Shown piece after piece: positions 5,031-62,500 of a stretch of 64,000 bases of DNA (within the stretch, counting starts at the first letter, position 1; the number at the start of each line of letters is the position of its first letter). This DNA is from Kappaphycus alvarezii. Lineage: Eukaryota; Rhodophyta; Florideophyceae; Gigartinales; Solieriaceae. A program made the position numbers and the translations under genes. The notes under the pieces were generated by a model, which worked only from the letters and a program-made list of their open reading frames with translations, was not told the origin of the DNA and did no database searches. The stretch is taken from the NCBI GenBank assembly GCA_002205965.3, contig NADL03000679.1, positions 806,001 through 870,000 of the forward strand, written 5' to 3'.

Positions 5031-5039
5031 TAGTTTGGA

Positions 5040-5080
5040 GGCGGGTGTTCACTGCGGTCGGACGCAGTGAACACCCCGCC
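5040..5080. repeat. 17-bp inverted repeat (hairpin)
   Basis: GGCGGGTGTTCACTGCG at 5040-5056 is matched by its reverse complement, with one extra C, at 5063-5080, leaving a 6-base loop. It lies at the left edge of the retroelement module copy, where the related copy at 22.2 kb has different sequence, so it probably arose at the break point of that copy. Confidence 0.8.
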
Positions 5081-9086: not shown

Positions 9087-9432
9087 CGACAACCCGATCG
9101 CACCTTTTTGGGCTCCGTTCTACTCTATGGATATGTTCGATGTGCCCAACTCCAAAAAAGAGCTGGCTTAATACATTACGATAGTTCACGATACTATTAG
9201 GGCTCTTACAAGCAGTATTAGCCACCGTGGAAGCAATAGTCTCTGCAACAGCTGAGATCAGGAATACAGACCAAGTACACTTGCCACAGTATTGCATAGT
9301 AGCATAGTCCTGGCTCTTGGTGTCGTACTTAAGCAGCAAATCATGCTCTACTAGCTTGGATGTAAAAGAAACAAGTAAGGACCAAAGACAACAATACCGA
9401 CCTACTCAACTCGACCCCGGATAGCTTGCAAT
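9087..9432 (+). repeat. Ty1/copia-like fossil, left LTR
   Basis: This 346-bp sequence recurs in direct orientation at 12445-12786. Comparison by eye over a 120-bp stretch in the middle shows roughly 8 percent difference, so the insertion is old. The borders are approximate because the ends are eroded. Minus-strand open frames across both copies are antisense to the LTR and are not genes. Confidence 0.65.
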
Positions 9433-12400: not shown

Positions 12401-12444
12401 CAGACCAGTTTTGATACAGTACTCGGTCTGACATCATCTAAAAA
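9433..12444 (+). mobile_element. Ty1/copia-like element, internal region (fossil)
   Basis: A 3.0-kb interior lies between two direct LTRs, short for a copia element. Plus-strand fragments suggest a gag-like part (about 9.4-10.9 kb), then a protease to pre-integrase part: an IDSRAS block with QYLAYRR downstream (from about 10.98 kb) and a TEAELRRLHRRAGYPSA block (about 11.35-11.40 kb), which resembles the pre-integrase zinc-finger region of Ty1/copia polyproteins. No reverse transcriptase core was recognised, so the 3' part looks largely lost. The copy is heavily broken, with many interruptions, and cannot be active. Confidence 0.6.
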
Positions 12445-12786
12445 CGACCGGATCGCACCGTTTTGGGCTCCGCTCTACTCTATCGATATGATCGATACGC
12501 CCAACTCGAAAGAAGAGCTGTCTTAATACATTACGATAGTTCATGATAATATTAGGGCTCTTACCAGCAGTATTAGCCACCTTGGAGGCAATAGTCGCTG
12601 GAACAGCTGTGATCAGCAATACAGACCAAGTATACTTGCCACAGTATTGCATAGTAGAAAAGTCCTGGCTCTTGGTGTCGTACTTAAGCAGCAACTCATG
12701 CTCTACTAGTTTGGATGTAAAAGTACCAAGTTAGAACCAAGACAACAATACCGACCTACTCAACTCGAACCAGGGAACCTTGCAAT
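12445..12786 (+). repeat. Ty1/copia-like fossil, right LTR
   Basis: Direct repeat partner of 9087-9432. Homology ends at the shared TTGCAATC. The sequence beyond it (TGTTGTACCGACAACA, itself an inverted repeat) is not shared with the left side. Confidence 0.65.
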
Positions 12787-13340
12787 CTGTTGTACCGACA
12801 ACAGTGCGTACAATATTCGGCCACAAATTTCGCTTCTGGAAGCCATGTACAGTATTGTATATAACCTCAAATTTAAATCGCGCGACCTATATACAGTACT
12901 TTTCATGGCTCGTGGCCACATATAACATCACTCTAAAACACAGTGCGATAAGCACAAAAACCGGCCGAAAAGTACTGCAGAGGCTACATTGTATCTGTGT
13001 TCTAGGTTTTTATTACAATCTAGCGAATTTTGATATTTCTGATTTGTCTATATAAAGAAGGGTGGGGAGTAGTTGGTGCCAGACCCCGAACACGAGCAAC
13101 ACCCGAAATCATTTGAACACCTCGAGCAACCCAACACCACAACACCACCATCACGTTGCCTTTTCCTGTGTGGTTTCCTAAAACCAGTGGTGTCCCTTGT
13201 CTCTTTGGACTTACGGTGTGCATGCCGAAGTTCAACGGGGCAATATCCATTATACTGCAGGTGTGTCTTGTCTCTTTGGACTTTCAGTGCTCAACTCGAA
13301 GTTCAAGTGGGCAATACCCTCAAAGACTGCTAAACTCTAA
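12787..13340. other. non-coding leader-like region with TATA-like box
   Basis: Holds a TATATAAAG box at 13049-13057, followed about 20 bp later by TGGTGCCAGACCCC, and then the imperfect direct repeat described separately. The arrangement looks like a promoter and 5' leader for the zinc-finger-like frame that begins at about 13.34 kb, but nothing proves transcription. Confidence 0.35.
13189..13319. repeat. imperfect tandem repeat, two units of about 71 bp
   Basis: The unit beginning GGTGTCCCTTGTCTCTTTGG at 13189 recurs at 13260 as GGTGTGTCTTGTCTCTTTGG. Both units continue through a CGAAGTTCAA block to GGGCAATA, with several substitutions between copies. Confidence 0.75.
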
Positions 13341-14004: not shown

Positions 14005-14745
14005 CTAAGAACAAAAAGAGAAGGAAAACCAAAAAAGAGATATATAAAAAGAAAGGAAAGAAAGGAAAAAGGAAAAAATTAAATTAGGAGCCCTCAAATA
14101 GAGGTGCGAGAATAAGAAGAAACCAGAACCCCGTCTAGTGCCTAACAAAAACCAGTGCTCACACAATCGGAGGAGTTCACCTTGAGCGACCGTTTCTCGT
14201 AACACTTGTTTCTCACGGGGTTCAGCGGGGGATGCGGGAGGATGTACAAAGATGTCTCCGGGCCGAAGTTCGGAACCACGGATGAGGTCAGAAACTTCGA
14301 GCTGGGTGTCCAAACCAGCGGTGCGGAAGAGGTGATAGGCCAGGGCGTTTCCAATGGAGTCATGCCGGTGTCGACGTCCAAACTCAGAGAGGCAGATGTC
14401 GGCAGCGTGATCACCGTAGACATCCAGCCGTTGCTGGCAGTGGTGACAGTTCAGCGGCATCGAGTCTGTGTAGACTGGGAGACCGAGGTGACGGCGTAAC
14501 ATTATGCTCCAATGGGCGGCGGAAACTTTTGTGGCAGCCGTTGGGTGCGCTTGAAGGAAAGCAGCGGCACCACTGTGGCGAAAAGCGAGGCCTAGCACTA
14601 GATACACTGCTTTTATGGATATTTGTTTAAAAACTTTGACTGGGAGCGCAGTAGACCCATCCTTTTGAGCCTTGAAGTTTTCATTGATGCTGGGAAACGC
14701 ATGTACGACTGTCGCGCGCGAAGGATTAAGTAGTTGGTCATTCAA
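14005..14745 (-). mobile_element. retroelement C-terminal module, fossil copy 2
   Basis: A 246-codon minus-strand frame contains, in order, RHSGAAAFLQAHP, LRRHLGLPVYTDS, a CHHC...YGDHAADIC zinc-binding-like block, RRHRHDSIGN, AGLDTQLE and ELRPGDIFVHPP. This order (Cys pair, GDHA-C, RH..N, AGL..E, RPxD) is the C-terminal domain that I know from a large group of eukaryotic reverse-transcriptase proteins, in animals, algae and oomycetes. The reverse transcriptase itself is not present next to it. The N-terminal and C-terminal extremes of the frame look unrelated to the module. It is a fossil fragment, oriented head-to-head with the copy at 15.3-16.3 kb. Confidence 0.55.
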
Positions 14746-15283
14746 AAGATTGGCAACAGAAGCTTATGAGCCTTAACTGGTCTTTGAGGATGAACAATGA
14801 CATGACAGTTACAGTAAGGTCCAAACTATATATTTAATGTAGTGCGGACTATCAGGCAATGCGCTAAAACTTGACCCAGTCAACCTGCGTGTGAAGAAGG
14901 CAATATCGAAAACCACTAAACCGTCGCACTTGATGTGGCAGTCAGGACAATGGAGCCATATCGAAAGGTTTAAGCCCAAGAACCTCTCACCCAAGGACAC
15001 GCAGCAGCGCCATTAACGTCAAATGCTTCCTGCCTGATAGCTGGTCTCAATCTCGTCCTCTAGGGAGATCATGGTGCGTTGCTGAACTCTTAGTTTGTAA
15101 GACGAACAATTTGCCTCTCGTCGGGAAATAGCACTACTTTCCAAACACTCAACTACCTAAACTCTCTCCACTTAAAACTTGGTATCTGATAATGATGATA
15201 CGTATGAGTAGCAATCCTGGCTAATTTCGGTTCCTACGGAATAAGAATGAAGAGTGTCATCGTAGTCAACACCTCATCCACTG
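14746..15283. other. spacer between two divergent retroelement fossils
   Basis: No reading frame of note. The sequence is moderately GC-rich. It may contain eroded reverse transcriptase sequence from either neighbour but I could not recognise it. Confidence 0.35.
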
Positions 15284-16330
15284 TTGATACCCATTGCGCC
15301 AGGTACCATATTCGCAGGATCTGTGTCTCAGCCTGCCTCCTCAACCATACCTGTAAGCTCACTGACCCCTAGCACGCATCCTCTGCTGCCGATGATTTTG
15401 AGGCGCTGCACAGGTCCTCGTAGGCGGCACAATGCGGGATTGCTCTCTCCAACCCCTGGGAATCAAGTCAGCTAGGCCTCTCATCTCGGTAGCCATGGCT
15501 TTTCCCTTATCAGCCACCTCCATGGTGCCGCTGCTGCCAGCATCATAGACGCCGCACCGGCCGTGAGCGGTCTGCCGTGTATACCATGCTGCGCGCCTCT
15601 GCTTTCCTCGGCCGCCGGGTCCGCAGCGACCGGGTCTTTTCCACTTGGCCAAGAAAGCAGCCCCTCCAGTTATTCTACCTCCGAGTCCCTGGCCCCCCTT
15701 CCTCCGCCGAATTTCTTGCCCTTGACCGCACAGAGCTCGCTGCAACACACGCCTACATCCAAACACAACTAAATTAGGTACAACAAGAGGCTGGGGCGAA
15801 TTCTCTCTGTCAGGACGATTAAACGGCGATATACCCCAGCCCAGATCATACGGCTGATGATATCCGGCAGCGAATACGCGTCCTCGCCTACCTCCACAGC
15901 CATGCTGCCGCATTGCTCCTAATCCCGCCCAGTTGTTGAGCCAACTGGACCATGATGCTTTCTTGACTCCTAGGACTCCTTATCAACACTGACTTCCTAC
16001 CGCTCACCTGCACAAATGCCGGCATTGTGATCAAAGCATGGATCCCGTCGGTTATCACGCGGCTGACCTCTGCCCTTGGTTCAGTCACACCCACCGTCGG
16101 GACTCGCTCCGCAATGCTCAACCCACCCACTTCTTTCGCTCCGCGGGACTCGACTGCGATTTTTAAGGTGCCTCTCCTCGTCCCTAGCAAGGTGCTTCGC
16201 CCGGCCGACATCCTCGTGCCACCCCCTCCAGCTCCAAGTGTCAACCAGACCAGCGCCATCACCTGTAATCTCAAGAGTGCTGGTATTCATATAGTCATGT
16301 CAAATAGCGCCCTTTCCTACTACAATATTG
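15284..16330 (+). mobile_element. retroelement C-terminal module, fossil copy 3
   Basis: Plus-strand frames between about 15.9 and 16.25 kb repeat the block order of copy 2: a LLGL-I-TDFLPLTC block, a C..C...GYHAADLC block, HRRDSLRNA, RSAGLDCDF and LRPADILVPPP. The upstream 15.3-15.8 kb is GC-rich and Ala/Pro-rich in translation and may be the rear of the reverse transcriptase part. The copy is interrupted in several places. Long minus-strand frames over 15.36-15.91 and 15.89-16.27 kb are antisense shadows. Confidence 0.5.
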
Positions 16331-20720: not shown

Positions 20721-20835
20721 TGTGCTCTTATACTTAAACTAACTTGCTTTTAGAGCGTTTCAACACTCTCCATTGACATCCTCCCAAGCCGCCCTGAGCC
20801 CCAGAGTAAACATCTATCAAGTCCGTCTATTAAGG

Positions 20836-21837
20836 ATGCCTAAGGGGACGCAATTGAGCTTAGAAGAGCGCGCCCAAATTTCAGGCTTGAAAGAAGCTGG
20901 TCTATCAATCCAGGCTATTGCTAGGCAGCTTGGTCGATCGCGAGCCGTGGTATCCTCATTTCTCAAGGGCCCAGCAACCTATGGCACCAGAAACGCCCGA
21001 GCGAATCGGAAGAAAATGACTGCAAGGGATGAACGGAGATTGCTTAGGGCAGCAAGTAACTCCACTAAGAGCTCAAGAACATTAAGAAATGAACTCAACC
21101 TCCCCATTTCCGCAAGCCGGACAAGGGCATACCTCAATGGTTCAGGGTTTCTACGTCATAAAAAAATTAAAAGGCAGCCTCCACTTCAACAGAGGCACCG
21201 GGATGCCCGTATTAAATTTGCAAGGAGTCATTCAGACAAGAGCGCGAATTAGTGGGGCAAGGTTGTTTGGAGCGATAAAAAAAGATTCAACTGCGATGGG
21301 CCGGACGGAATTCAGTGCTATTGGCACGATTTGAGGCGCGAGGAATTGGTTTTATCTAAACGGCAACATGGGGGGAATGGAGTTATGGTTTGGGCAGCTT
21401 TTTGCGCACATGGAAGGACAAAGTTAGTGAAGGTGACTGTTCGATTAAATGGAGGGGAATACGTGAAGATTTTAGAGAAGGAGTTACTTGACTGGGCCGA
21501 TGAAGAGTTGCTAATTGGATGGATATTTCAGCAGGATAATGCCCCTGCCCATGCGTCCAAAGTAGCTGAGAAGTGGTTTAAAGATCAAGGAATATCCGTT
21601 CTAGAGTGGCCAGCTCGTTCTCCAGATTTAAACCCTATGGAGAATCGTTGGGGCATACTGGCCAGGGCCGTTTATGCCAATTCAAGGCAATTTTCTACTG
21701 TGCAGGAACTCATGGATTGTATCACTGAATGTTGGGACAATATTGACCCTAATATTGTCCAACGGCTGGTGAATTCAATGCACAATCGCTGCATTGAAGT
21801 CATTGCTAGGCAGGGTGGAATGACAGATTACTAGTTT
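20836..21837 (+). pseudogene. Tc1-family transposase (DD34E), one in-frame stop
   Basis: This frame encodes a 333-residue Tc1 transposase, the usual length for the family, if one TAG is ignored. I chose ATG 20836 (MPKGTQLSLEERAQ) because Tc1 proteins begin close to the first helix-turn-helix; an in-frame ATG also exists at 20773. Residues 8-45 form the first helix-turn-helix (EERAQISGLKEAG...AIARQLGRSRAVV), followed by a second DNA-binding part. The catalytic Asp sits in VVWSDKKRF, the second in FQQDNAPAHAS, and the Glu in SPDLNPMENRWG, with exactly 34 residues between the last two. The single TAG at 21250-21252 (codon 139), just before WGKVVWSDKKRF, is probably a CAG-to-TAG change. No frameshift is present, so the gene was lost recently or the copy moves with help from another. 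Confidence 0.9.
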
Positions 21838-22149: not shown

Positions 22150-22645
22150 GAGAGGAGAGTGGACGCATCAAACATTAACGCGCGACCTGCGGATATTCCG
22201 GTCCACCCGCAGTCTGATGCATCAAACACCCCGCCCCTCTCCCAGTGGCCTATGACATCACCGTATCCTCGCCATTCCAGGAGAACTACATGTCAATGGG
22301 AGCACGGAAAGCGCGAGCCGTTGCCAATGCAGCAGAAAAGCGGAAGAAGAGGGACCTAGCCACGAAAGTGGCTGCCATTCCTGGCGAAGTCCTGCCGGCA
22401 CGATCGAGGTTTTGATGGAATTTTCTGCCGCTGGCTTCTGACTTGCTAGGTTCACCTTGCGAGACATCATCCAAGGTCATTGAGAAATACGCCGCAGCTG
22501 TCGCGTCTTGCAGCGGATGTTTTACTGGGGGAGTGAAGACTCGCTTTTATCAGAAACTTGGCTACGCTATATGGTCCACATGTGCGGCGGCTGTAATATG
22601 TCGTGCCCCGCAACACGCAGAATTTAGCCACCCGATTCAAGCTTT
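22150..22645 (+). mobile_element. retroelement C-terminal module, fossil copy 4
   Basis: Plus-strand translation gives ARPADIPVHP, then VAYDVT-SPFQENYMSMGAR and an Ala/Lys-rich helix, an EKYAAAVASCSGCF block, QKLGYAIWSTCAAAVICR and finally HPIQA. It aligns block for block with copies 1 and 5, and its right end (HPIQ or HPV followed by non-matching DNA) agrees with theirs, so the 3' boundary of the element is near 22640. It is a broken fossil without reverse transcriptase. Confidence 0.55.
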
Positions 22646-33300: not shown

Positions 33301-36300
33301 CACCTTTAAAGGATTTTTCTCTTTTTCGAGGTCCCTATTTTCTTTTGCAGCGGCTTTTATGTTTATTGAATAGGTACTTAGGGCAGTTTCAGTGAAATTG
33401 CAGCCAGTATTATTGGTATAAATAGAAGTCCAGTCTAAAATTTTTTGCTGAAAAGGGACCTGAAATGTAGTTATTTCTGGTTCGTGGAGAGCCATAAAAG
33501 TATCTCTGTGAGCCAAATAAAACGAATTGTCGTGGAATCCTACATTTATTTTATTTCTCAGAAAACAACGTATGCTGACATGTTTTTGAAGCAACGGGAG
33601 CTGTCTAAATCTGGTATGAATTGTACTATAATATATTTTTCTCGCGAACTTATAGAAAGGTGGCGGCGTACTGCAGTTTGCAGACTGAACTCATATGGAC
33701 TGGCTGCTTCGTTTGAGACGTTTTTAAAATGCCAGAGGTACAATTTAGTGCGCCTATTCATGTCATGCGTGAACATTTTACTATGTATCTTCAACAGAAA
33801 TACTCATGAGACCAGAAAAATGTGATCAGAGGACCTAAACACTGAAAGGGTGTAAATTACAACTCGTTTAATCATCAATATTGCTGCACGACTATAATGG
33901 ACATATTATTGTTCGATCCTGGAGTTGTATTATATGGCTTACACTGTAATAAACCTACTTTATTATTATCTATTTCAGTCGAACTGAGTTAGCGGACGTG
34001 CCTTTGCACAAGGATTCGGAAATATTTCGAAATGCTGGCCCTCCTACTCTTTCCACACAATCCTAAAGAATGTGAAACAAGGGTTTAAATTAAGACGTTT
34101 ATTAAAATCAATATCATTTTTGAACTTCTATAGAGCAATATATAATCATCTAGGTGGAGTCAAGAGTGCCGAATTTGTCTAGAATATTCACACGGTTCAC
34201 GAACGAATGCGAAGAAATAAATGAAAAAGTTAAGACGAAATTTTACGAGTACCCGAAAGAAAACATGACACAGAACTCTTTTAAAGTATTTAATAGGAAT
34301 AAAATACAACTGGATGCAATTATAGCAAGAGTAGAGTGCAGCTGGAACCAAATATATTTCACCACAGCCAGCGGAAGTCTTAAAGCGACCAAATGACTGG
34401 TACTGGCCTAACTTGAAAAGACAAATCTGATCCCGGCTTGAAAAAACGAAATGTCTCTTCAGCGGGTCTTGGAATCAATTAATTGTTCAATTAGAACAGT
34501 GTGGAGTTACTTGGATTCGAATGTGTTCGGTAAAAGACAGAAAATATTGAAGAAGTGCAAAAAGGCCGAAGCTTACCATTTTCACGGCCTTTTAATGGCT
34601 TAAATAGACTAAGGGATAAAATGGAACTGAGAATGAAAAAGTTATACTTTTTGTCTGCTGGGTCGAGAAATTACTCTCATGCTCGGAAAAATTAAAATGT
34701 CAACACAGTAAAGAAGCTCCTTTTATGGATCAGCGCTCATAGTTGAGGGCTACCTTTTACTAAACTTTAATTTAAACAGGACATTTTCAGGGGAAAGAAT
34801 AAAACTAGCGATGAGAATATGTACAAAGTTTATCATTTTGTGGTTTTGATAGCAATTTCCATGATATTTATCGAGATAAAGGGATAATATGAGGCATCTA
34901 GATGTAATAGTCGCTGATGTTTTGTGGTAATATATACCAGAATCTCCAGGTTATGTGCACAAAATGGAAGTATGGTCTCTGCGATATATTTCAAGATTTA
35001 TGGAGAATAATAAGTACCTTGGAAGGAATTGAATATAATAAACTATTATGTTTATTAGCACAATAGTGATTTTGTACACGAATTAGAGTATAATTTGGAG
35101 CAGAATGAGGTCAATGACATTGCTTCTTTCCTTGTACAGACCGAAATATAAACCTGAATATCAAATAAAGTCTCTGTTACTTACTATTCGGTTGTTTTGA
35201 TCATGGTTAAAAGCATTTTAACATATTAAACGAGCTTCGAACTGCTATCAATGATGGCTGGGATGGAGCGGGTCCAAAAGTATTTTAAAATTGTACAGTG
35301 ATACTTAAGGGCCTTAAATAACGGAAATTGAGTGAAACGGACTACCATAAAGAAATAAATGGAGTTAAATGTACATTATTATTATTGTAAAGAAAACATT
35401 TTGAGACATTGTGCTTCGTTCATTTAGTACTTAATTTACAATTAATACTGAGAAACGATAGAAAGGATAGCCGTGCTCCTAATTTTTGCTTGAAGAAAAA
35501 TCTCTTCAGATGGTTACCATATTCATGTAATTAACTTGTTAGACAAGTTTTCGATGTAATTTTAATGATAGTGCATTTTTCGATAATGTAACTATAAGAC
35601 GTTTGCGCACTATACATCCTAAGTTCAAACCCGTATTGAGCGCCGTTGCCGAAGCAAAATTATCATCTTTTGATATTCTAAGTAAAATGGATGCTCATCT
35701 TCGCATAATGCCAGCTAAAATCACTTATTTCTCTTACGGATGTGCATTGGACGGGCTTTGTACTACGGACTGGACATGTATAAAATTAAAGCTTATTTGA
35801 CCTGCAGCTTATAATTTTCACCTCGCAATTCCATTCTAGAGACAAATCACCTAAGATATTTCCGTACTAATATCTTTCATGACCTATGAGTACGGAAAAT
35901 GAATATCTGTAACAAAAAGCTGTTTCGTGCAAAGAAAAATTCTTTATTAAACTGAGAGAGGAAAATAAAACCAGTAAGAGGCCTATATTAATTGTGAAAC
36001 AGTAATGAAGCAACTAATGATTTAATAAAGCAGTATCGAGTCATTATTTCGCGCCGGGAATGCTTTGAATTATAACAAGATAGTTCTTAGTATTACGGTT
36101 GAAGCCTGCTCTGAAAAGTCAAACTCAACATAAAGTCTTATCTGAGCAATTATAGCAGCATTTGCTCATTCTTCCTAGTGATACTCCGTACGACGCCAAA
36201 TTACTGTCCAATTTTGCCCAATTTTGGGATTTTGTTCGCTGCAGAGTTCCATTTCAGGAACAGTGATACAAATTTATGCTCTAAGTTATTTATTACAAAC

Positions 36301-37193
36301 GTGGCGAATGAAAATGTAGCAAAGAGGTTGAAAATTTGTTTCATGCATGGTAAAAATCCATTATTACATAGATAACGTGACTTGGTAACGTTCAAATGGT
36401 TAAGATGGATGTGAGGTAGAATACAATGCTAAAAATAGGTCTGATTTAGTATGAATTGTAGCACTAGGAGGCAATTGTCAGCATAAAATTTGACCTGGAT
36501 CATTGTACTGAACCAATGATTATAGTTAGGGCAATATACATGATATTTATAGGTACAGATAGATTACTGAATATAAATTGATAAAGTTGGTCCAATTTTA
36601 GCTTATAACCCTATGAATGCAGCTATTGTAAATGAAAGATTAGAGAATAATAACGATTTCAAGCATGAAAACAAAATGTTAACATTAGAGATATTATGAA
36701 ACATGATTTTTTTCACTTATCCGATAACATCAGTTCATCAAAAGTCTGGGAAAGATTTGAAAAAAGCAAGGGAAACATTGATCATGCTACATATGCAAGT
36801 ATGAAAGCCACTGAGTACATTTCATCCAATTCTACCCGTCATGGAACTACATGCGAAAGAAATCTTTTTCGAAACGAGCAGCATTGCGCCGACTACAAAG
36901 TAGTCGAGGTCTAATCTATCTCCCAATGCGCTTAGTTCGGAAGGTTCTGTGCCTCACTGAGTAGCCCTATCTGTCGATCGAAGATGCAAAGACATAGAGC
37001 GGTTATGCGCTCGATACAGTCTTGTTAGGGCAATATAATTTAAACAGACCGTGTAGGGCGACCACGTCGCGCTATCCGACTTTCGCTTGAGAAGAAGCGA
37101 GACTCCGCAAATTGCATTTTTAACGGCGTGGCACAGTAAATCTTCGAAACAAAGCAGTTATAGTTGCTAGCGTAGTCCTCTATAAGCTAGCGA
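30344..37193. other. AT-rich relic DNA
   Basis: Nearly 7 kb with only short accidental frames. Between 30.8 and 31.9 kb several plus-strand snatches read like an old coding region, but no motif can be named. The only distinct structure is a perfect 35-bp tandem duplication at 32454-32523. From 36.95 to 37.15 kb the sequence turns GC-richer and may be an unrecognised repeat edge. Confidence 0.4.
32454..32523. repeat. perfect tandem duplication, 2 x 35 bp
   Basis: The unit starting TCCTGGACAATGAAGGCCTA and ending CAAAGTT occurs at 32454-32488 and again at 32489-32523 without a difference, so it is recent or an assembly duplication. Confidence 0.9.
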
Positions 37194-37712
37194 AAACATG
37201 TATATAGTATCAAATTGAACCTGTATTTGGTAAGCAAGCAAGTAAGATGAGCTAAATATTCTGAGAGATATTAGAATGCTTTGTACAAGCTCTCGGGCGC
37301 TTAGAAGCACATTTCAAATTGGGAAGCCACAGAAACACTTAAAAGATTATGCAAAGGCCCCAAAAGCACAGATTCATAGCGGAACAAGCTCATTTTAGAA
37401 AATATTTAAATATGATTTGTAAACTGGATTTTTGTAGGATTGCAACTTTGGATTAAAAAAATCATTTTTAAAAATATTAGCTAGAATTAGAACATAGTTA
37501 TTATTTGAAACTCGGCAAAAGTTTGCACATCAAATATGAATACGAATAGTATTATTAAATTCTACATTAAAGTGCATAATTTACTTGATTACTACAGTGC
37601 AGAAATACGTTAGATTGATCAACTCAGAGATGTTTACTTTCGAATTGAGTCACTTCAGTCCGTATTATTCCCTCAAGGGAACCTATGGCATATATTGGTG
37701 ATAATGTTTAGG
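37194..37712 (+). repeat. permuted inverted repeat, left copy (A-B order)
   Basis: Segment A (37194-37357, from AAACATGTATATAG to GCAAAGG) is followed by segment B (37358-37712, from CCCAAAAGCACAG to AATGTTTAGG). Both segments recur in inverted orientation at 44999-45519 but in the opposite order. By eye, they differ at only a few percent of positions. No coding frame is present. Confidence 0.85.
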
Positions 37713-38980
37713 TTTACCGCATCGTTACCTCCAAATCTCGCACAATTGTCATATTTTCACAACTGAAACACTTTTTCGAAAGAGAAAAATCCACATAACC
37801 AATAATACCCATTTCAGTATTTTGCTTTGCTGATCTTTCTTTACGGTCGCTCTAACAAGGCCTCGTGCCCTAAGCCTCCATCCTTCTGGAATATAAATCA
37901 CATGCTGCAAATAAGCCCACATTCGTCGCCCTACAATCCTAGATTCTTGTGAAATATCGTGGGCATCCCATCTTAACTCTTCCCTTCCTTTCTATCATAA
38001 CATCGATCTTACCGGAATTTCCTACCTACTCTCTCACCGTGTTTCATCGACATTATTGAACAACCTAATACCAGAATGCTACCCTTTTAGGCGGTAAAGC
38101 GAATTTAATAACTATAATCGGTAATCTTAACATAGTTAATGACCATATCATAAATTACTGTAACTTCTCATCAGATATTCAAATATGACTGTGATGCGGC
38201 TTCTGCTGCATTTTTCGTTTCAAAATGCGCTATATAATTCAGGAATAGCGTAAATGAACGACCAACCACGCTTTAGTAGGTAGAATGGCTTGATTTGTTC
38301 TAATATATGCAAAAAATGTTCAGTTTTTTCCATTGCTACCGTACATGAATGAGCCGCGGATTTGCTCACGCAAAATACGGTGAAGAAATACAGGAAATAT
38401 TCCTTAGAGCTCTAGTTGTGAGTAGAGATTGTCCTTTACTAAGGAGTAATGGAAACGCAAGAAATTAGGGCCAGGACGAAGGCAGTAACAGGGCAACACG
38501 AGCTCTTCAACCCTGACTATTAGGGACTATTAGGGCACTGTAGTGTACCAATGGAACCATAAGGCGTACTTAAATAATAAAATACACTACAGGTCTTCTT
38601 TATATTTCTAATAAAATATTTACAGTACTATGTTACTTTGGCAGATAATTGGTTGCCTAAAATGGACCTTTATTTGCAATGAGGATAAAACTTTTATTAT
38701 GTTTTTTTCATTTACGAGAGGAATTCCTAGTAAAAATTTTATGATGGATAAGAGATAAATTGGTGGACCTTACCCCATTACAATTACAGAACGCCAAATA
38801 TGTAACTAACCCGCAGTATAGATTCATATCCATATAATAAGGTAATATTTCGTCTCGAAAAAGTCTATTGTACAACAAAAGCTTCCTTTGTTCATTCATC
38901 CCGCGCCATGTAAAACAAATAATTTAAACTGGTTGCCATTTTCTCAGATATGTACTAAAGGGTCTGAGCTTACAGTTAAG
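37713..38980. other. AT-rich stretch, nothing recognised
   Basis: No frame, RNA or repeat beyond short low-complexity runs such as the GACTATTAGG doublet near 38515. Confidence 0.35.
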
Positions 38981-38984
38981 AACT

Positions 38985-39465
38985 AACAGGGTGGTCAATG
39001 TCAGCCGCGTGCGATGTTGTGCGACAGATTATGGTCAAAGAAGCAGCGTAACAGATGACGGCGCTGAGGCGCTGGTAGGTGCTGTGAGGAATAACCTCCG
39101 TGGAGCTATGATGGATGCGAGCGAATAGCCGAAAAAATCGTTGCGAAATCGACATTCTCGGCAGAAAGGGCACCGAGAGAATCGAAATAGAGGAGTTAAA
39201 ACTCGAAAGAAAGGCCGTTCCGGGGTCCATCCGGGAGATTGAGTGGCCGATGTGCTAGCTGGCGGTCTAGGTCTTGAATCTTGTCCCCGTGCTGAGTTCA
39301 CTGCGCCAACTGCTATCCGAGCGACCTTCAACGCCAGTGAACGACAGGAAAAGCGATACAGTGGTGATTTCCGAGGCAGAGAGCGGGGTTGCGGCGGCAT
39401 ATAGTTAGCGGGGGGAGGTACTAAGATGTCCGCGGGACGGAACTCAGTCCCCAAGATATGGAGCG
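38985..39465 (-). mobile_element. retroelement C-terminal module, fossil copy 5
   Basis: Minus-strand translation begins GTEFRPADILVPPPA and, after eroded sequence, ends with QRLSAVICYAASLTIICR then DIDHPV. The end block aligns with QKLGYAIWSTCAAAVICR and HPIQ of copy 4. The copy is a broken fossil; its 3' end on the minus strand lies near 38985. Confidence 0.55.
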
Positions 39466-40150
39466 GTGCCTCAAGCTCTCAGTTGTGTCCAGCGAAGTTA
39501 GTAACGTTCTCGACTAGGGTATTACAAATGGAGTTGTAACTTACAAGAATATTAGGCTTACAACTGGAACATTCGAAATGTTTGAAGTTCCGCAAAATTT
39601 ACGCATGGCGATGCTCATATGGAGAGCTTCACGCTCCATAATGGCTTTAATGGTTTATATGGTGTCAGGAAAATAGGCAGTGGGCACCCGGAAATAGTTC
39701 TACTTTGTTCCAGTGGTTCTTATTGGATCTTGGCATCGACTTAACGGAGAATTGATGGACAATTGCGGGAATTTTTTCAGACTTTTTTCTTTTGCTATGT
39801 CCCCTCTTCTTTATCTCAATTTTACATTGGAAGGAGCTACATTGGAAGGAGCTATTTATATCATCTTTTAGTTTCAGAGAAGCATTTTTTTTGTGCTGTA
39901 GTTAGCTTTATACGTTACGCTCTTGCCACAGCCCGAGTAATGCAAAATAGTTCACAATCGTTTCTACATGTGCAGTATTAGACTTTCATGCAGTACCGCA
40001 CGTCATGTCGAAAGAGTTCCCAAAAGGGATTTTCTATTCACCCGTAAAACAAATCGTACCATAACGGTGGCGAATAGTAAAATACACGAGTTTATTGGTT
40101 CCATTTGAAATTAATCGACTTCTCTCTAGAATCTTATGGTACAGTTAGAA
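39466..40150. other. spacer with a 15-bp tandem doublet
   Basis: Contains TACATTGGAAGGAGC twice in tandem at 39823-39852. No gene was recognised. Confidence 0.4.
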
Positions 40151-43100
40151 TAAACGGTGGCATAAATTACACCATTTGACACCATCATCGAGATGCCTAC
40201 CTTTAAATCACTTAGGACTCTTATGGACTTCGACATAGAATTAGTATTAGTCCGCAGAGGTGACAGAGAGGTTTTTGTGTCATTTGAAGAAGGGAAGGAA
40301 CTATGGGACTCCTATTGAATACTTTGCTTCGGACTCAGTCCTATTCACCGGTACTTAATATTAATGGGATTAAATATAAGTGGCAGTTGTTGGTGAAGGA
40401 TGTCCGATAGACAAACAAGCTAATGAATATTTTGAGCAGATTTGAACTACTGATAAAGGTAGAGAAGAGCGAACGGGAGAGCTCAGAGCACTTTTGGCGC
40501 ACATCCCCGAAAAGGCACAAACAGACATCGCCTTAAAGGATGCTGGAGTGGTTGCGTCGTGCATGGACGAGCTACATCCTGCCTCTTTTCATAACACTCA
40601 CGGGGTTGAACTAAAGATCACAATTCAATTTGCCACCGTATCCGTCGGATGGCTCGAAAACACGACGGAGTAGTCCGGAATGAAATAGGTTACATGCCCA
40701 AGGCGGTAATAATAACACCAGCAGCATATTGATGGTCACTCTGGGTGGTATTTTCTCAAAATACCAGCGGTAAGCCTCATTTAGCGTAGATTAATGAACC
40801 CGCAACAGATAGATGATGGCTGAAAGGTGGCCGCTACCTCGGATAGAGGAGATATTTGATGAGTTGAGAGGGGGGTCAGTATTTGAAAATCTCGACTTTT
40901 GATACCTATTAGCAAGCTCGTACAGGCGGGGCTTGTAAGGAGATGACAACCTTCGTGTGCTGCCACGGAACTTTTAAGTTTGAAGTAATGCCATTTGGGC
41001 TAATGAACGCCCCATCGACTTTCCAGAGGATGATGGACAAATTTTTATGCGATATCCCGTTCACTCATGTATACTTGGATGATGTGGCAGTCTTTCCATG
41101 CGACTTTGCCGAACATTTAGAAAATCAGAAGAATTGCGGGCCATTGAATCTTCGGACTTGAATTTGAAAGTGGAAAAGCGCAACTTCTCAGTGCCTTCGT
41201 TAAAATGAGTTTGAAAGTGAAAAGGACAGCTTCTCAGTTCCTTCGTTAAACTTTTTTGGCAACAAGGCAGCTTTTAATGGTGTCAGAATTGACGAAAAGC
41301 CAAAACAGGCTTTCCAGATGGCACCTGCCCCGAGATTTACAACGAAGCTACGTATTTTCATGGATTTGGCAGGACAGTGTCGACGTTTCGACCAAGAGTC
41401 TACAGATATATGAGCCTTCGTACACGCTGAAATCTCGGGAAAAAATATTTTTGAGTGGTCAGAATGAAGGACGTATGTGTTCGAATAATTTAAGGAAAAA
41501 CTTACATTACCAGCTGTTCTTTCCTACCTCGAAATTACGGTCCCATTTTCCGTTGACCAGGACCCGTCGAAAGTCGCATCCGGAGCCGTTCTAAGACAAA
41601 AATGGAATATCTTAAGGTACATCAGATCGAATATGCGAGTCTAACCATGCTCAATCAGAAAAAAGTTATAGAACAAGCGAGGGAGAGGCTCTGGACATAG
41701 TTTTTTCGTTGCGCAATATTCGTGTTTACTTACTCTGGTTAGAACCCTTCCAGCCAATTACGTATATTCAAGCCCTCCGCAATGCCTTCAAAAAAGGAAG
41801 TCCGAGTAAGATTAGCGCACTTGCTCCAATATATAGGGGAGTAAGGTTTCAAAGTTTAACACAGAGCAAGGAAATGCCCCAGCAGACTACTTAACCTGTT
41901 CCGCACTCCCATAGACACCAAAATCTACATCATATGAAGGAATAATGACCGTGATTACAGAGCTCATGTAAATGGGTTGGATTTGGAATCCATCTTACGG
42001 AAAAAGTAAGGAATTTAAATTACTTTTAGATTTTGGATAGTGACAAGTACCTTAAACTTTAAATAAAAACGAGTGCGAAGAACTTTATTAAATGGACAGA
42101 ACAGCTGTCCTGCCATACAGCGAAATTATTTCGAGCTATTTCACAGATTTAATCTCACGTTAGGATACTTCGCATGTTCTAAGATGATATGAGTCACTGG
42201 GACGTTCGCACTACGATAAAGTTTCTCACGGATCGATATTGGTGGCCTATAGTTTACCTTGAAATCCATGAATTTTGGAAAATCCGCCGCGGATGGCAGG
42301 AGTCATAACATTTGCCTCCCTACAAAAAAACGCTTTAAGTGCCCCTGAAAAGTTTGTTCGAGAATTACCCTATCGACTTCGCAGGTCCTTTTCCCGCGAA
42401 AACATGATCGGGAAGCAGGTGTATTCTAATGGCTGCAGACCACTTATTTGGATGGCCTTTTGTCGTGCAACGGAGTTAAATACGGATCTAGTGGTGATGG
42501 AGTTCGTTAAGAAAGAGACAGTGTTGATTTATGGACCTTCTGTAAAAATGGTCTCGGATAACACCACTTGCCTCATGTCAGGAATCCTGGTGTATTTCAT
42601 AAAAAGTAACGGTATATCTTGGAGTAAAGTGCTGGCCTACGAACTAGTATAAAATGATAGGGCAGAACGGATGGTACGGACTCTGGCATCCGCAGTGCAG
42701 AAGATGGACGTGGAACACTGGGATTCATAGGAAGCCGTTTCTCCATGGTCCTTACACGGTTACAGGCGCCAGAAACCTCGAATGGCTTCTTCTCTTTCGA
42801 GTTAATGTTTGGATTACCACCACATCTTGTCAATACAGACGCTGCATAAAAGCAAATGAATGGCACTCAAGACCACGGAGCTAATATACTGCTGGCTTGT
42901 TGTCTGTGGAGAACGAATCGTGTAATGGAGCACCTAAGACGCCAGGAACGATTGGAGGTTGAGGAAAGCGTCAAGCTTCGGGTAGGAGACTGGATTTTTG
43001 TCGCATGTGGACAGTCTTTAAGTTCAAATTTCAGGTGGCCTGGACCAACTTCGAAATATTATGGCCCATGCCGCATAATCAAACAAAACATTGTCTTTAT

Positions 43101-43200
43101 GAATTCGTATATCTCCATGGACGCCAAACAAGGCTTCCGATCCATTTTAGCAGGTTAAAAATTTAGACAAGGATGCCGGGTCACCTTTCTAGAAGGATCT
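40151..43200 (+). mobile_element. Ty3/gypsy-like element, decayed fossil
   Basis: Plus-strand fragments fall in the order expected of a Ty3/gypsy polyprotein: a possible gag-end at 40.4-40.6 kb, a reverse transcriptase piece with EVMPFGLMNAPSTFQRMMDK and a YLDD box at about 40.98-41.10 kb, an integrase piece around 42.37-42.48 kb and a piece from about 42.85 to 43.16 kb with LRVGDWIFVA and WPGP, typical of the integrase C-terminus. Many interruptions show an old insertion. No LTR pair was identified. It lies between the two arms of the permuted inverted repeat. Confidence 0.6.
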
Positions 43201-44998
43201 TTTTGATGGTTGAGTTCGAAACAAAAAAATTCCCCGACGAATATATGAGGGCCTTTTTTCAGAGCGCACTTGGATTTTTCTCTTCGTGCATTCATTTGAA
43301 GCCTTCATGCTTCTAGCTTTATTTTTTATTTCTGTTTTTGCTTAGTATTTTCATCCCCTCCTTTCCCCCTTTTTAATTCTAACCCACTCCCTAGCCCCGA
43401 TGCTGTTTCTTCACAAATGGAACCAGTCTGAGGGGTTTTTTGCCGGTGAAATGCTGATTAAAATAATTTTTTGGGCAAAAATGATGTCACATTCCTTGCA
43501 CCAAGGGGTTTAGCGGGCTTAAGTTCTCCTCCCTGTCGCTATTTTATGCCATCTTTATTGGTAGTAGATTTATTTTTGGTGTTATCCTAGGATTTACTTC
43601 TGCAAGACCTTGTACTAATGCGACTCGCGCATTTTCCGCCGATTTCTCGCCTTCCTCTTCTTTTTTTGAGGATATCTTAAATGCCTTCGTACAGACTCGG
43701 TCTATTTTCGTTTGTTCTCTTTGATGTGGTTGCTGATGACTCGCCGAGAGCGGTATTGCAGTGAGGGTGGAGGGTTTGGAAAGATGGAGCTGGTGATTGC
43801 ATCCTTCAAACCGTACTTAACCGTAAAGTTAGGAGAACTGTTGACACAGATGTCAACAGCGGGATAGAAAGACCAGGTGACTCAGAAGTCAGACAAAAAA
43901 AGAGATGGCCGAAGTATTCCTCAGATAATGAACAGAATGCGTTATTTGTCGAGGATATCAGGTAAAAGCGGTTTCTAGACGCATAAGATAGAAAAGGAGA
44001 GGAATACATTGGAGCGCAATAATACATATCTGCAGCGAAAATAAGCATAATCCTCTTCTAAGTTATAAAATCTTCGCAAATTCAAAGACGAGATCCGAAT
44101 GAAATTTTTAGTTGAGGAGCGCAAGTATGTGATATATTTTTTGATGGCTCTAACAAGTGAGGTTAAGTAAGCCTAGTTTTTCTATCTCTTTCCACCCCAA
44201 CCTGATCGAAGGAAACGATCTGCTTTTATTCGAGATGCGTCCGGGGTAGTGCGGCTGTTGCAGAGTATTCCACGACGCTACGTCGCAATAAGATTAAAAA
44301 CATATGACCGATAAAAAGATATACTGAGAGTGAAATGTAGAGGAAACGTATACAATATTCACTTTTTCGACAACCATTTTGCAAATAATTTATTGCAAAC
44401 GTTCTTATTCATTCACTTTCACGGTCCTACAGTGAAAGTATAGTATATGGTATTCTCGACTCAATATCCTAGGCATACTTTGAAGTTTCACGGAAGTTCC
44501 GCAGACAAGTAGAGTAGCGCAAATATTCCCTTTCTTACCATGAAAATGAGTTTAACGTCTTTCGGGGACCATATCATTGTATTGCCCATGTAACTCCATT
44601 CCACTGCTTCTCTAAGCGCTTTCGTGCCCGACTGAAATTCCATCTGTTCGGATGGTGGCATATAAAGTGAAAAAGCTGAAACCCTGGCTGCAAGACTTAC
44701 GCGGCAGCACCATACAGGTAATACTGTATTGCATCTGTAATGCTTCTTTCACTCCGCAATTTTTCCACTCTATTTTGGCGAATTAATGTTATATCATGAC
44801 GCCGCCCAGTTTCAGGTTCATACAAATAAAAAATGAGGGCATTAGCGCGCTTATTGATGAAAAAGGCAACTTATACGCATTTATCCAGAATAAAAGCTTG
44901 ATTTCAAGCTACTTCTTCCTTTGGCCCTGCATATCTGGATCTTTGAGTAATGTATGACCCCAAGAATTTCTCAAGAGAGACTCTATTATCTGGAATAG
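43201..44998. other. relic DNA, pyrimidine-rich then AT-rich
   Basis: A pyrimidine-rich stretch at about 43.26-43.43 kb follows the gypsy fossil and could be the remains of its 3' end. No gene is visible. Confidence 0.35.
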
Positions 44999-45519
44999 CC
45001 TTTGCATAATATTTTGAGTGTTTCTGCGGCTTCCCAATTTGAAATGTGCTTCTAAGCGCCCGAGAGCTTGTACAAAGCATTCTAATATCTCTCAGAATAT
45101 TTAGCTCATATTACTTGCTTGCTTACCAAATACAGGTTCAATTTGATACTATATACATGTTTACGCCTAAACATTATCACCAATATATGCCATAGGTTCC
45201 CTTGAGGGAATAATACGGACTGAAGGGACTCAATTCGAAAGTAAACATCTCTGAGTTGATCAAACTAACGTATTTCTGCACTGTAGTAATCAAGTAAATT
45301 ATGCACTTTAATGTAGAATTTAATAATACTATTCGTATTCATATTTGATGTGCAAACTTTTGCCGAGTTTCAAATAATAACTATGTTCTAATTCTAGCTA
45401 ATATTTTTAAAAATGATTTTTTTAATCCAAAGTTGCAATCCTACAAAAATCCAATTTACAAATCATATTTAAATATTTTCTAAAATGAGCTTGTTCCGCT
45501 AGGAATCTGTGCTTTTGGG
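44999..45519 (-). repeat. permuted inverted repeat, right copy (B-A order on the minus strand)
   Basis: Read on the minus strand it begins with B (45519-45165) and continues with A (45163-44999), so relative to 37194-37712 it is both inverted and circularly permuted. The junction reads AATGTTTAGG-CG-TAAACATG. Confidence 0.85.
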
Positions 45520-48500
45520 CTTCAATTACGTTGATAACTTCATTTCATAAACTATCAACGTTTACATAAACCAAGGTGATTTCCTATACTTTTTTTGGAT
45601 ATTCTTCCCCGGAAATTGCATAACAGTAAATATGTTTCACTAAATTCATTTTGTCAAAAATTTTCACTAATATAATCAAGTTATTTGAATTCGATTCCTT
45701 CTTTGTTCCGGTAGACATTTTCGTTTACATTATCGCTGGAAAAATCTCTTTCGTAAGTTAAATATTCATTGAACTGTTGAGTTGTGATTTTAGGATGAAG
45801 TAATGCCTATTCCAGCTGATCTATTCTCCTCAGGAACAAAATTTTTAATAGCTATAAACTCTACTAGTATTACGTGAATTTTTCAGATGGTCTTCTCATA
45901 GTAATTTTTTCTTCAAGCTGAAATATTCCATTTTTTGGAGCACGTTGAATTCCTAAAGTTTTTTCTGTGCTTTTTATAGACTTTTAAGAGCTTTTAAAAG
46001 TTCTTTGATTTTTCACCTGCACCCAGCAATGATTGCAATTGTATAAGCCGTCAGTTTATTCTTAACGATGATTATTTTTGACTATTTAAGGCCTATAATT
46101 CATTCTATCAAAATGAGACCTGGAAAGATCTAATTTTTCGTCTCTATTTTGAGAGATTAATTTGTATGGCTCTCTTGGAGTTCTATCATTTAATGAAATT
46201 TTGCTTCGAGATAAAATATTTGAAAATTTTTTCCGCCAAAATCTACTAATTAAATTATTAAAGAAAATTATATTTTCGTATTGAGAAGGTAGTATAATAC
46301 TGTAAAGATAATAATCCTTTTTTCATCGAACTATTTCATCAGACCGTGAGCTTTTTACCTATTGACCTTTACTACTGTGGTTTTCGCTTTCTGTTTACTA
46401 CAGTGCAAAATAGATGGAAAGGTTAATTACATTTTTTTTGTTTCTTCACAGATTATAAGGCAGCCTCAACCATATTGCTGATTTGATAATTTTACTGCTT
46501 ATCTATATAGCGGGAGTTGGCTTCAGTGTAGTGATTTGACGATAATCTGTAAATCCGGCATTAAGACATTAAGTTACTCTTGAGAATATTTTAGTTCCTA
46601 TCTCCACGGTGACATATTCTGTGAACTAGAGAGACAAGATTTTGGCCCAAAACATTCTATTTTCAGTTTACCATGGGCAGGTTTCTAAGCTCATTAAACC
46701 GTCATCGGACCATTTCATATCTCAAAATCATAAATTGTGTAAATTATGAGCTTGATACATAAATTGCTCCTGGGCCAATCCTTTTTAACACAGTTGATTT
46801 GAGATAACAATTTGTTAATTTTCAACTCATTTTTGCAGTTCGTGTTGCGAAGAAAAAGAACATTGGACTCTTTAGAGATCATAAAGGCCCTATGTTTACA
46901 ACCGTTACTGATATTTATCCCTCTCTCAGTGACGAAATATCTGAAGTTCTACGAAGGAGAAAAGAAGGATATGCACAGGACCAAACCATCAATCTGCGAT
47001 AGAATTGTATTTGTATAAGAACAAAAATAATTTATGTTATTCTGTACAGTAGTAAACTCCGGACACTAATTACATTTTGGGCTGATAAAAGTCTTCTGAA
47101 AAGTTTCTCTGTAAACATGTAATTACACTGCATTAGTGCTGAATAGTTTCTACTTCACAGAACTCAAACAAAATCATCCACTTCTAGATACTAGAAGGAT
47201 AAATTGTTGTAAATTGAACCTAAAATGGAAGGTAATTCGGTGGAAATTTTTTGCTCGGACTCCAAGCAACGAAAGGATTTTGATGAGTTTTGTATTAATC
47301 CAGCTTTTTTTCTGTTTAATATATGCAAGGACAGCACAGGGCAAGAAATAAGCTTTCATTTAAAAGATGGCGCTAAAATTTGTCCCCATATAAGTAAAAT
47401 GGCCTGGTAGACGTTGAAAGCAGCTCATATGGCTCTATATTTTACGTGAAACTTAAAATAGAAGAGTAATGATCCGTAAAAAAGGGCCAAATGTGAAACT
47501 AAAGTTCGAATTTGCTTCAAGTAGTGGTATCTACTTGAAAAATGAAAGCAAAAAAAGTTTGGCCAGTACTCTCCCGACGCACAAAATTTCTTATTTCCTT
47601 AAATTTCTCTGACCATAACTAGCTCGAAACGTACGCTACAAACATAATTTTTCCAAAGATTTCCCAATATTTCTACAGGCTAGTACATTCTAATCATTTT
47701 TACCAATAAAAAAGGTACTTTAAGGACTCTTAACACTCGAAAATTACTATATTTATTTTATCCAAATACATCATTTGAATTATCATGGATAGAGAAACTA
47801 AAAAACTAAAATTCATAAATAAATATTATAAACATTCATATTTTATGATTTCATGGATGTCAATAAGCACTTTTTTATGCATACCCTTTTCGAAATCTTG
47901 TAATTCTCTCTTCTCGTGCTAAATTTGTTTTCCGGAAATTATTTTTTCATTAACTTTAAAAGCTCCAAAAGTGAAGGAAATGAAAATGATATTCACAGAC
48001 AGTAATGATTTTTAAGAACAAAAATAAACAAATTTGATATTTGAGAACATTCAGGACAGTACAACACCTACACGATGTTGTAATCATATTACGGACTTTA
48101 TCGAATAAAAAAATTTATAATTACATTGGTGTGGTGATTACGAAACGGTGGACTATTTAGAGCTGAAAAGCCTCATAACGGCTCAGATGAGAACGGGACG
48201 ATTTTTAGGATGAAACATGCATCGAAGAACTTACCTGGGAAAATGGTCCTGCAGATAAGGAAAATGTTCTTTGCTGTGCTACGTATTTCAATATCAGAAT
48301 GAACGATGATGATCCGAAATTTATAGTTTTGTGTGCACAAAACAGAGCGCGATTAGAAAAATTCCACTTTTACGAATAAGGAGAGAAGAATGCCATCAAG
48401 AATAAAAGGAGACCAGCTAATAAAGATCCGTGGTAATAGATAGAGCTGTATTGCAAAGTTTTAAGTGTAATGGAGATGTATTAGAAACAAACTAGATTCA

Positions 48501-59580: not shown

Positions 59581-62500
59581 TTGCGATCCAGTGGTTCACA
59601 GCTGAAAGCGACGCACGAGTTGTATGCCTCCAACTCGAATTCCTCCACCACCGACACGTGTTCAAGGACCGCGCCGGGCAAAGGAAAGATCTAAGTTTGG
59701 TCTTTACGACAAGCCATGAGTGCGAACATCACCGCGCAAGGTGCGCAAGGTGCAGGTGACTCCGGCACGCGACCCATAGAAGGTAGTGCAACAAACGAGG
59801 AGGTTATTCAGTCATTACGGTCAGAGATCCAGATGATGCGTCAGACGATGGCTGCACAAGATGCACGCATAGAGAATTTGCTTACGCTAGTCGAGCAAGG
59901 CACAGTCAATCAAGGCTCTTCCGGAAACGCTGGAGAGGGCTCGTGCGATCTTCGCTCGATCAAGGCACCGCAGTTGTGTAGCTATGCAGGCAATCATGAT
60001 GAGCGCACGTCTACTAAGGTGAAGTCATTCATTTACAATGTGAGAAAGGTCGGACGTCTAAGTGGTTTCCGTGACCAGAAAATGGTAGAACTGGCTGATT
60101 GCTATTTACAGGATCGCGCTGCTGTCTGGATGATGGGATTGGAGCGCAATAATCAGAAGCCGAGAACAGTAGATGAGCTTCAAACAGCTATGCTTCGCGA
60201 GTTTGTCCCCCAAAATGAGCGCGCCCGTGCAAAGGCGAGACTTATGAAGATCAAGCAGTCATCGACAATGGACAGCTATATATCTTCTTTCCGTGATCTC
60301 GTAGAGTTATGCGAGACTCCTCTCTCGGAAGCGTATCTTTTCTTTTTCAATGGACTCACCGATCGTTTTAAAGAAGAGTTTTGTAAGAAGTATCCCACAG
60401 GTGAACCGAATGATCTACAGGAAGTGTACGATCATGCCCGTGTTTTGGATTTGGCGAAGCAGTGGTCCTCAGGGAACATGGATACCCGCCCCAAGGACCG
60501 TCGCCCCGATATTAAAGGTGTAAAGAAGGATATCAATCTTAAGAAGGCTCGTGGAGAGAAGACAATGATGCCTGAGAAGGATCCTAAGGATCCTATCTGG
60601 GGTCCGTCGGATTCCAAACAATATCTTTCCGTGATCTCGTAGAGTTATGCGAGACTCCTCTCTCGGAAGCGTATCTTTTCTTTTTCAATGGACTCACCGA
60701 TCGTTTTAAAGAAGAGTTTTGTAAGAAGTATCCCACAGGTGAACCGAATGATCTACAGGAAGTGTACGATCATGCCCGTGTTTTGGATTTGGCGAAGCAG
60801 TGGTCCTCAGGGAACATGGATACCCGCCCCAAGGACCGTCGCCCCGATATTAAAGGTGTAAAGAAGGATATCAATCTTAAGAAGGCTCGTGGAGAGAAGA
60901 CAATGATGCCTGAGAAGGATCCTAAGGATCCTATCTGGGGTCCGTCGGATTCCAAACAGCGCAACCATTACCGCAAGCATAACCGTTGCTTTGAGTGTGG
61001 TGCGGCGTGGGAACCAGGACACAGATGTTCAATCGAAGAAAGCAACCAGAATGGGTTGCAGGTGGCAGGCCGTGGGGACAACCCAAAAGGCCAACGCCGT
61101 CGTTAGAGGCGGCCCATGTTAATCTAAACGGGGATGTACCCCTTCGTCTGTCCGCAATTGGGACAGAAACAGCAGGCAACAATGAAATGTATTATGATTG
61201 TGTTGTCGGATGTGTACAGTCTGTTGGTCATCTCGACCCAGGGGCCACAGACAATTTTATAACCTCCGAGCTGGCTCAGCGAGCTTGTCTTGAAGTACGT
61301 GATTTTGTCACGAAGGTGGAGCTAGGAGACGGCTCCGAAACGAAGACTACAGGGATCACGAATGGTATCATTGGCCTAGACGGTTGCTTAAGCGAGCAAA
61401 CTCTGTATGTAATCGAGCTGCCCGAGCACACGCCGTTAGTGCTAGGCCGATCATGGTTAAGAGAGCATAATCCTATCGTGGATTGGAGTAACTGCTCTCT
61501 CAAAGTCGTTCTGCCAGGTGGATCTACGAAATTGATACGACCTCGGCAAGTACCGCGCCATAGAAGCATATCCCTGAAGACAATTTCCATCAAACGGATG
61601 AGAAAGATGCTGCGAAAGGGCAACGTTGAGCTTTTTGCGGTGAAGGTAATGCCTGCGGAGGGAAAGTCCAAGGTGGCGCCTGAGTTGGCATCGTTAGTCG
61701 GGGAGTACGGCGAAATTTTCCGAGATGAGTTGCCAGATGAACTACCACCGCAAAGAGGCGTTAATTTTGAGATCAATCTGAAAAGTGATTCAGCACCTCC
61801 TGTGCGACCGGTTATCAGGCTATCAACAGATGAGCTAGCAGAGCTCAAACGGCAGTTGAAGGAGTTGGTCAACAAAGGATTTTTGCGCCCGTCAATATCG
61901 CCGTATGGCGCACCAGTGTTTTTTGTGCGTAAGAAGTCAGGCGATCTTAGAATGGTATGTGATTTCCGCGCTCTCAACAAGATCACTATCCCAGATGTGA
62001 CACCTCTGCCACTCATATCCGAGGCCTTAGACCACGTGAGTGGGGCTACTGTATTTTCCAAAGTGGATCTTCTTGGTGCATACCACCAAATGCGTATTCG
62101 TGACGAGGACATCCCGAAGACCGCGATTCGAACACGATTCGGGTCTTATGAATGGACTGTACTGTGTTTCGGACTTACTAACGCGCCAGCCAGCTTCACA
62201 CGTTTGCTGACGACGCTTCTACGAGACCTAAATGGCGAATGTTTGGTCATATTCCTTGATGATATACTTGTGTATAGTCGCAATATGGAGGAACATAAGA
62301 AACATTTGCGCTCGTTGTTTGATATCTTGCGCAGAGAACAACTGTTTGCAAAGCCAGCAAAATGCGAGTTTGGGAGCTCCAGTATCGAGTTCCTAGGGCA
62401 CGTAGTCAGTGCAAACGGGATTGAGATGCAAGCTAATCTGAAGGATGCAATCCTAGACTGGCCAAGGCCAACGACGATTCGTCACGTCCAGCAGTTCATT

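Follow-up and report, generated by a model that had tools for sequence, protein, structure and literature searches.

In human circular-DNA-mediated segmental duplications (cSDPs), a change of block order from A-B to B-A is the published signature of circle-mediated duplication; 24 cluster pairs were reported, 16 of which were characterised further (Chicote et al. 2020, PMC7450558), and at the five closing points that were resolved either 0-2 nucleotides (nt) are shared or 1 nt has been inserted (PMC7450558). Extracts of the account of wine yeast region B by Galeote et al. (2011, PMC3053389) describe insertions that are circularly permuted and, at four junctions, have 2-3 nt in common. Here we report a pair of half-kilobase repeats, a left and a right copy, in a stretch of 64,000 nt of contig NADL03000679.1 (positions 806,001 to 870,000 of the forward strand; hereafter the window, with coordinates counted from its first letter) that shows the same change of order between two copies of one unit. 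Our favoured reading, held with about even confidence, is that a piece of 522 base pairs (bp) from one of the two loci circularised, was opened at another point and was joined in inverted orientation 7.3 kilobases (kb) away.

A comparison of the window with itself (BLAST) returned two gapless inverted matches, ~7.3 kb apart, which define the parts A and B of the repeated unit. The features concerned are the following, with a slash marking a point of joining:

37190..37358, plus strand: left copy, part A (169 nt; start at 37194 on a stricter reading given below); 97% identical to 45166-44998 of the minus strand, without gaps
37359..37712, plus strand: left copy, part B (354 nt); 99% identical to 45519-45166 of the minus strand, without gaps
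37356..37361, plus strand: A/B junction GGC/CCC, intact in the left copy; the right copy was opened here, with 0 nt lost or gained
37713..44997, no strand: spacer between the copies, 7.3 kb, outside the unit; decayed retrotransposon pol and another fragment
44998..45166, minus strand: right copy, part A; base 45166 is common to A and B; pairs with 37190-37358
45157..45174, minus strand: B/A junction ATGTTTA-GGCG-TAAACAT, intact in the right copy; 7-bp stem and 4-nt loop (stem scan and phase scan)
45166..45519, minus strand: right copy, part B; pairs with 37359-37712

The whole left copy occupies 37190-37712 on the plus strand in the order A(169)-B(354), and the whole right copy occupies 44998-45519, where the order on the minus strand is B-A. 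The plus strand of the window reads A B ... A' B', and the copies are both inverted and circularly permuted, as the initial annotation had proposed with positions that were right to within a few bases. In the B pair (37359-37712 and 45166-45519) the 354 nt carry 4 substitutions (expect value, E, 3e-178), while the 169 nt of the A pair (37190-37358 and 44998-45166) carry 5 (E 3e-76), one of them at 37193, the fourth base. The left copy had been given a start at 37194; the match from that point holds, and homology runs on to 37190, with the bases GCG lying beyond the mismatch at 37193. Aligned over 523 positions, the copies differ by 9 substitutions and 0 insertions or deletions, an overall divergence of 1.7% (3.0% in A and 1.1% in B, a difference that is not significant; Fisher p 0.16). 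Other arrangements were considered and set aside: mirror-order inverted repeats or foldback arms, which read A B ... B' A', are ruled out by the order A B ... A' B', and inverting an ordinary direct or inverted pair once would, by reasoning, either separate A from B or leave the order as it was.

The divergence and the arrangement also bear on whether the pair is an artefact of assembly or amplification, which we consider very unlikely. An exact tandem duplication with a 338-bp period, present elsewhere in the window (60286-60958), makes assembly trouble conceivable; however, the 9 differing sites, the four unrelated flanks and the permutation itself speak against misassembly. Fold-back chimaeras would yield A B ... 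B' A' with identical sequence, which counts against an artefact as well.

The two copies close on a unit of 522 bp, which both of them fit. In the left copy the A/B junction reads AAAGGC/CCCAAAAG, at the same site as AAAGGC/CCCAAAAGC; on the minus strand the right copy starts with CCCAAAAGC and ends with AAAGGC, which is exactly one unit opened bluntly between A and B. Within the right copy the B/A junction reads TTTAGG-CG-TAAACATG, written in longer form as GTTTAGGCGTAAACATG, and the left copy starts with GCG(A)AAACATG and ends with GTTTAGG, which is one unit opened between B and A with one G at both ends, the scar being a 1-nt overlap at TTTAG-G-CG. On the stricter reading, in which the GCG before the mismatch at 37193 is a matter of chance, the left copy is without 3 nt of the unit. 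Within either copy the ends of its partner lie side by side, the scars being a few nt long, and each copy amounts to one complete unit (less those 3 nt on the left if the stricter reading is taken), a property absent from the initial annotation.

Both junctions noted in that annotation were found, one in each copy, and its argument that their coexistence requires a tandem array or a circle of the unit is sound. The idea that A and B are independent repeats brought together by coincidence, which it had named as an outcome that would overturn the claim, is rejected, since junctions and borders agree to the base. Between its two proposals, a satellite captured twice and a circle, the circle is favoured, because captures taken at random from an array would not both stop at exactly one unit. 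Two arbitrary stretches of a tandem array, taken up in different register, would contain both junctions, which exist in any array; nevertheless, we consider this origin extremely improbable, as whole-unit length in both copies would arise by chance with p ~3.3e-5 for closure to within 1 nt and ~1.8e-4 for closure to within 3 nt, values that assume piece lengths uniform modulo the unit and that amount to two coincidences of ~3/522 each. A circle that closes at one point and opens at another automatically gives exactly one unit in both copies, with the borders of each mirroring the junction inside the other.

If the pair arose through such a circle, one of the loci would have supplied a 522-bp segment, either copied or cut out, and the ends of that segment would have been joined into a small circle, with a 1-nt overlap if the left copy was the donor or bluntly if the right copy was. 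A break at another point of the circle would have produced a linear piece, and end joining would have placed this piece, in the opposite orientation, into a break 7.3 kb away. The copy at the donor locus would have been kept or regained, for example with a circle that came from the sister chromatid or the homologue. We infer the circle itself, end joining as the route of insertion and a single event; order, orientation, whole-unit length, borders and divergence can be read off the DNA, as can the lack of detectable homology and of any target duplication of at least 4 nt. The unit has a G+C content of 0.32. The 500 nt beyond the right copy come closest, at 0.30, while the other three flanks range from 0.39 to 0.42, a weak hint that the right locus was the donor.

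The flanks of the two copies share no detectable homology, all 12 comparisons of flank with flank lying within their shuffled controls (60 shuffles each), so that no homology able to drive insertion was seen. Further unit sequence was sought in the four flanks on either strand, and seven of the eight comparisons fell within 100 shuffles; the eighth, between the left upstream flank and the reverse strand of the unit, scored 31 against a shuffle maximum of 28, and its alignment is 23 nt long and A/T-rich. Target duplications, which the initial annotation had suggested looking for, were not found at the borders: direct repeats of 4-9 nt, sought up to ~30 nt from each border, were 4-mers only and none stood at a border, and inspection for repeats of 2-3 nt, made by eye only, showed none at the borders given above.

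A circle need not have come from either of the two loci. If the unit were the monomer of a dispersed repeat or satellite, unit-length circles could have been excised from arrays elsewhere by homologous recombination and inserted on two separate occasions with different openings. This origin, which we rate as unlikely, would also yield exactly one unit per copy in different phases, with the 1.7% divergence as variation between monomers, and circles with reintegration are proposed for the satellite TCAST of Tribolium in excerpts of the literature (PMC3411249). On the other hand, the arrival of two rare insertions within 7.3 kb of each other would have to be coincidental for any repeat that is not abundant, and self-comparison at E up to 1e-4 detected neither an array nor a third copy of the unit in the 64-kb window. 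Accordingly, neither repeated reinsertion of a circle nor a satellite monomer has support within the window at that threshold. Tandem Repeats Finder, with a longest period of 500, is blind to a 522-bp unit. A candidate for a diverged third copy, near 46395, proved to be a 22-nt similarity scoring 32, at chance level next to the best of 100 shuffles (35).

Pattern searches of sequence collections also returned nothing that would favour a dispersed family: two unit patterns and two junction patterns had no match in viral contigs, and one unit pattern had none in genome contigs, results that say little since these collections are described as viral and prokaryotic. Nothing was found in phage and plasmid collections, as expected for eukaryotic sequence.

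The left copy was opened in the loop of the hairpin ATGTTTA-GGCG-TAAACAT, which is formed by the joined ends of B and A. In a scan of all 522 phases of the unit, 5 openings have inverted ends as good as those of the left copy, and three of these are neighbouring positions at the same place; the terminal inverted repeats of the left copy are 7-9 bp long and imperfect. The opening of the right copy is unremarkable, 385 of the 522 phases being as good, and that copy has no terminal inverted repeats. An opening in a hairpin loop is expected in ~2% of cases by chance over two openings, by a score that was chosen after the fact. The circle has somewhat more stems of at least 6 bp than shuffled sequences do (5 listed against a mean of 1.8), and the motif GTTTA-N(0-6)-TAAAC occurs twice in the window, at 45159-45172 in the B/A junction and at 45560-45571; for the whole window 0.63 occurrences are expected, and at least two were present in 9 of 100 shuffles. 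The second occurrence (GTTTACATAAAC, 45560-45571) lies 40 nt beyond the right copy. These hairpin observations, none of them strong, could reflect breakage at hairpins or a small element with inverted ends.

The latter possibility would make the left copy a small element with short terminal inverted repeats (C-G/C-T-AAACAT), whose circle, excised with its ends abutted, was opened elsewhere and then captured through end joining as the right copy. Such an element would account for a left opening that ranks in the top 5 of the 522 phases by terminal inverted repeats and a right opening that does not (385 of 522 as good), and hAT transposons are known to form circles in which few or no bases separate the ends (PMC2803484, in part). 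We nonetheless think it improbable: the inverted ends are only 7-9 bp, at a chance level of ~2%, three of the five best phases are one place, and the circle is in any case somewhat richer in short stems than shuffles. No direct repeat of at least 4 nt stands at the borders of the left copy (those of 2-3 nt were checked by eye only, and none was seen), and among the frames listed no open frame of at least 60 amino acids lies within the unit. According to the parts of the same source concerned with Hermes, reinserting circles use their ends and produce an 8-bp duplication, and in flies only those with at least 80 nt between the ends do so (PMC2803484).

Other identities of the unit were tried and dropped. 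Spy transposons leave no target duplication and prefer AAATTT, according to extracts of their description (PMC4482050), and the left copy can be written in that form as AAAA/CAT...ATG/TTTA; the right copy has these bases internally, apart from the mismatch at 37193, and they therefore belong to the unit. For a known structured RNA or a ribozyme-bearing retrozyme (with a hammerhead, for example) there is no Rfam match at gathering score in the window, and around the copies there were only matches far below gathering, with E of at least 1. Nor is the unit unusually stable when folded as RNA (z -0.42, with 32 of 100 shuffles as stable).

A further route dispenses with the circle altogether. In template switching (MMBIR/FoSTeS) a polymerase would have copied B first, returned to where A begins and departed after copying A as well. 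The copies are only 7.3 kb apart, and local inverted duplications with little microhomology, also discussed in PMC7450558, are expected of template switching. A hairpin with a 9-bp stem (45528-45561) starts 8 nt past the right border at 45519, the only one of the four borders with a stem of at least 8 bp within 40 nt; the same proximity holds for 6.2% of the window. The second GTTTA/TAAAC motif overlaps this stem by 2 nt. Copying would have to stop exactly one base before its own start, however, a coincidence of ~1 in 500 that a circle explains, and we see only a slim prospect for this route.

The spacer was compared at the protein level, three open frames of the window being searched against 36000-47000 with tblastn. 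The pol frame at 60995-63124 matches 40886-41635 on the plus strand at 25% identity (E 1e-13), and the frame at 14005-14763 matches 39365-39538 on the minus strand (E 4e-7); the gag frame has no match in 36000-47000. The 7.3 kb between the copies thus hold the remains of a retrotransposon, with a pol that we label Ty3/gypsy-like. The related protein pieces at 14005-14763, 15883-16239 and 39365-39538 lie on both strands, the longest without a Pfam match, and our guess is that they are of retroelement origin; a search of viral contigs with a retroelement protein piece gave one stretch that fitted the pattern and none that was confirmed.

Six of the ten open frames scanned have Pfam matches, among them a DEAD-box helicase, a 2-hydroxyacid dehydrogenase, a Tc3-like transposase, a retrotransposon gag and a reverse transcriptase, and these families make it most likely that the window is eukaryotic; the other four, including 14005-14763, have none. 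The Tc3-like transposase (20743-21834; helix-turn-helix and DDE_3) consists of two adjoining open stretches in one reading frame with a stop between them. The exact tandem duplication at 60286-60958 lies inside the retrotransposon gag frame (59695-60642), which it breaks, and is either very recent or an assembly fault. Two direct repeats were also recorded, one of 345 bp at 90% identity (9089-9433 and 12444-12787, 3.4 kb apart) and one of 433 bp at 76% identity (5054-5486 and 22209-22640, 17 kb apart), the first copy of the latter starting inside an imperfect palindrome at 5039-5081.

Several points weigh against a circle-mediated duplication at this locus. No circle has been seen. An opening in a hairpin loop, as in the left copy, is not what purely random opening predicts. 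The cases in the literature used for comparison are far larger (22-3918 kb and 17 kb), and in Magnaporthe oryzae, where the same signature was sought in the non-repetitive regions of 306 genomes, none was found and the yeast case was recovered, as stated in excerpts of that study (PMC9694575). Finally, the copy number of the unit across the genome decides between a duplication and a satellite or mobile element, and the count given here is that of the window. The unit might even be a small parasite, a mobile sequence of half a kilobase that exists as a circle and needs no fixed pair of ends for insertion, with the hairpin loop as one preferred opening; it would spread by end-joining capture and not by a transposase acting on fixed termini. 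We regard this possibility as distinctly improbable. If the circle-mediated duplication is correct, the locus would preserve, readable to the base, the scar of a sub-kilobase DNA circle re-entering a chromosome, and a survey for permuted repeat pairs would measure how frequently small circles reintegrate; should the unit instead belong to a dispersed family, the spread of satellites could be tested on it.

Mammalian germ cells commonly contain circles of ~180 and ~360 bp, and small circles dominate their circular DNA, according to part of the report (PMC10581685). The TCAST satellite of Tribolium castaneum resembles the unit described here in having elements away from its arrays, for which circles and reintegration are proposed; TCAST, as far as the excerpts go, is an abundant satellite, whereas no array is seen in the window (PMC3411249). 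In episomal hAT elements the transposon ends are abutted in the circle, a state comparable with the ATGTTTAGG/CGTAAACAT junction; yet in the sections available those elements reintegrate at their ends with an 8-bp target duplication, while here the second copy was opened internally and no such duplication was found (PMC2803484).

Two of the closest known systems are those introduced at the outset. As in the human cSDPs (PMC7450558), the block order is swapped, the ends of one copy are joined inside the other, the closing points fit 0-2 shared nt or 1 inserted nt, the breakpoints lack homology and there are two copies. The human pairs, however, are 22 kb to 3.9 megabases (Mb) long (22-3918 kb) and lie 0.09-58 Mb apart or on different chromosomes, in contrast to 0.52 kb and an inverted placement 7.3 kb away; they show gains or losses of up to 27 bp, and their donor and derivative copies are told apart by relatives, unlike here. 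Wine yeast region B likewise shows a single unit inserted in circular permutation, at several sites and with little or no sequence in common, which the published extracts ascribe to a circle and nonhomologous end joining (PMC3053389). That region is described there as 17 kb long, with a working replication origin and up to four copies per strain, whereas the present unit is 522 bp and has two known copies. Among circle-mediated duplications, the present pair would be a small, 522-bp member.

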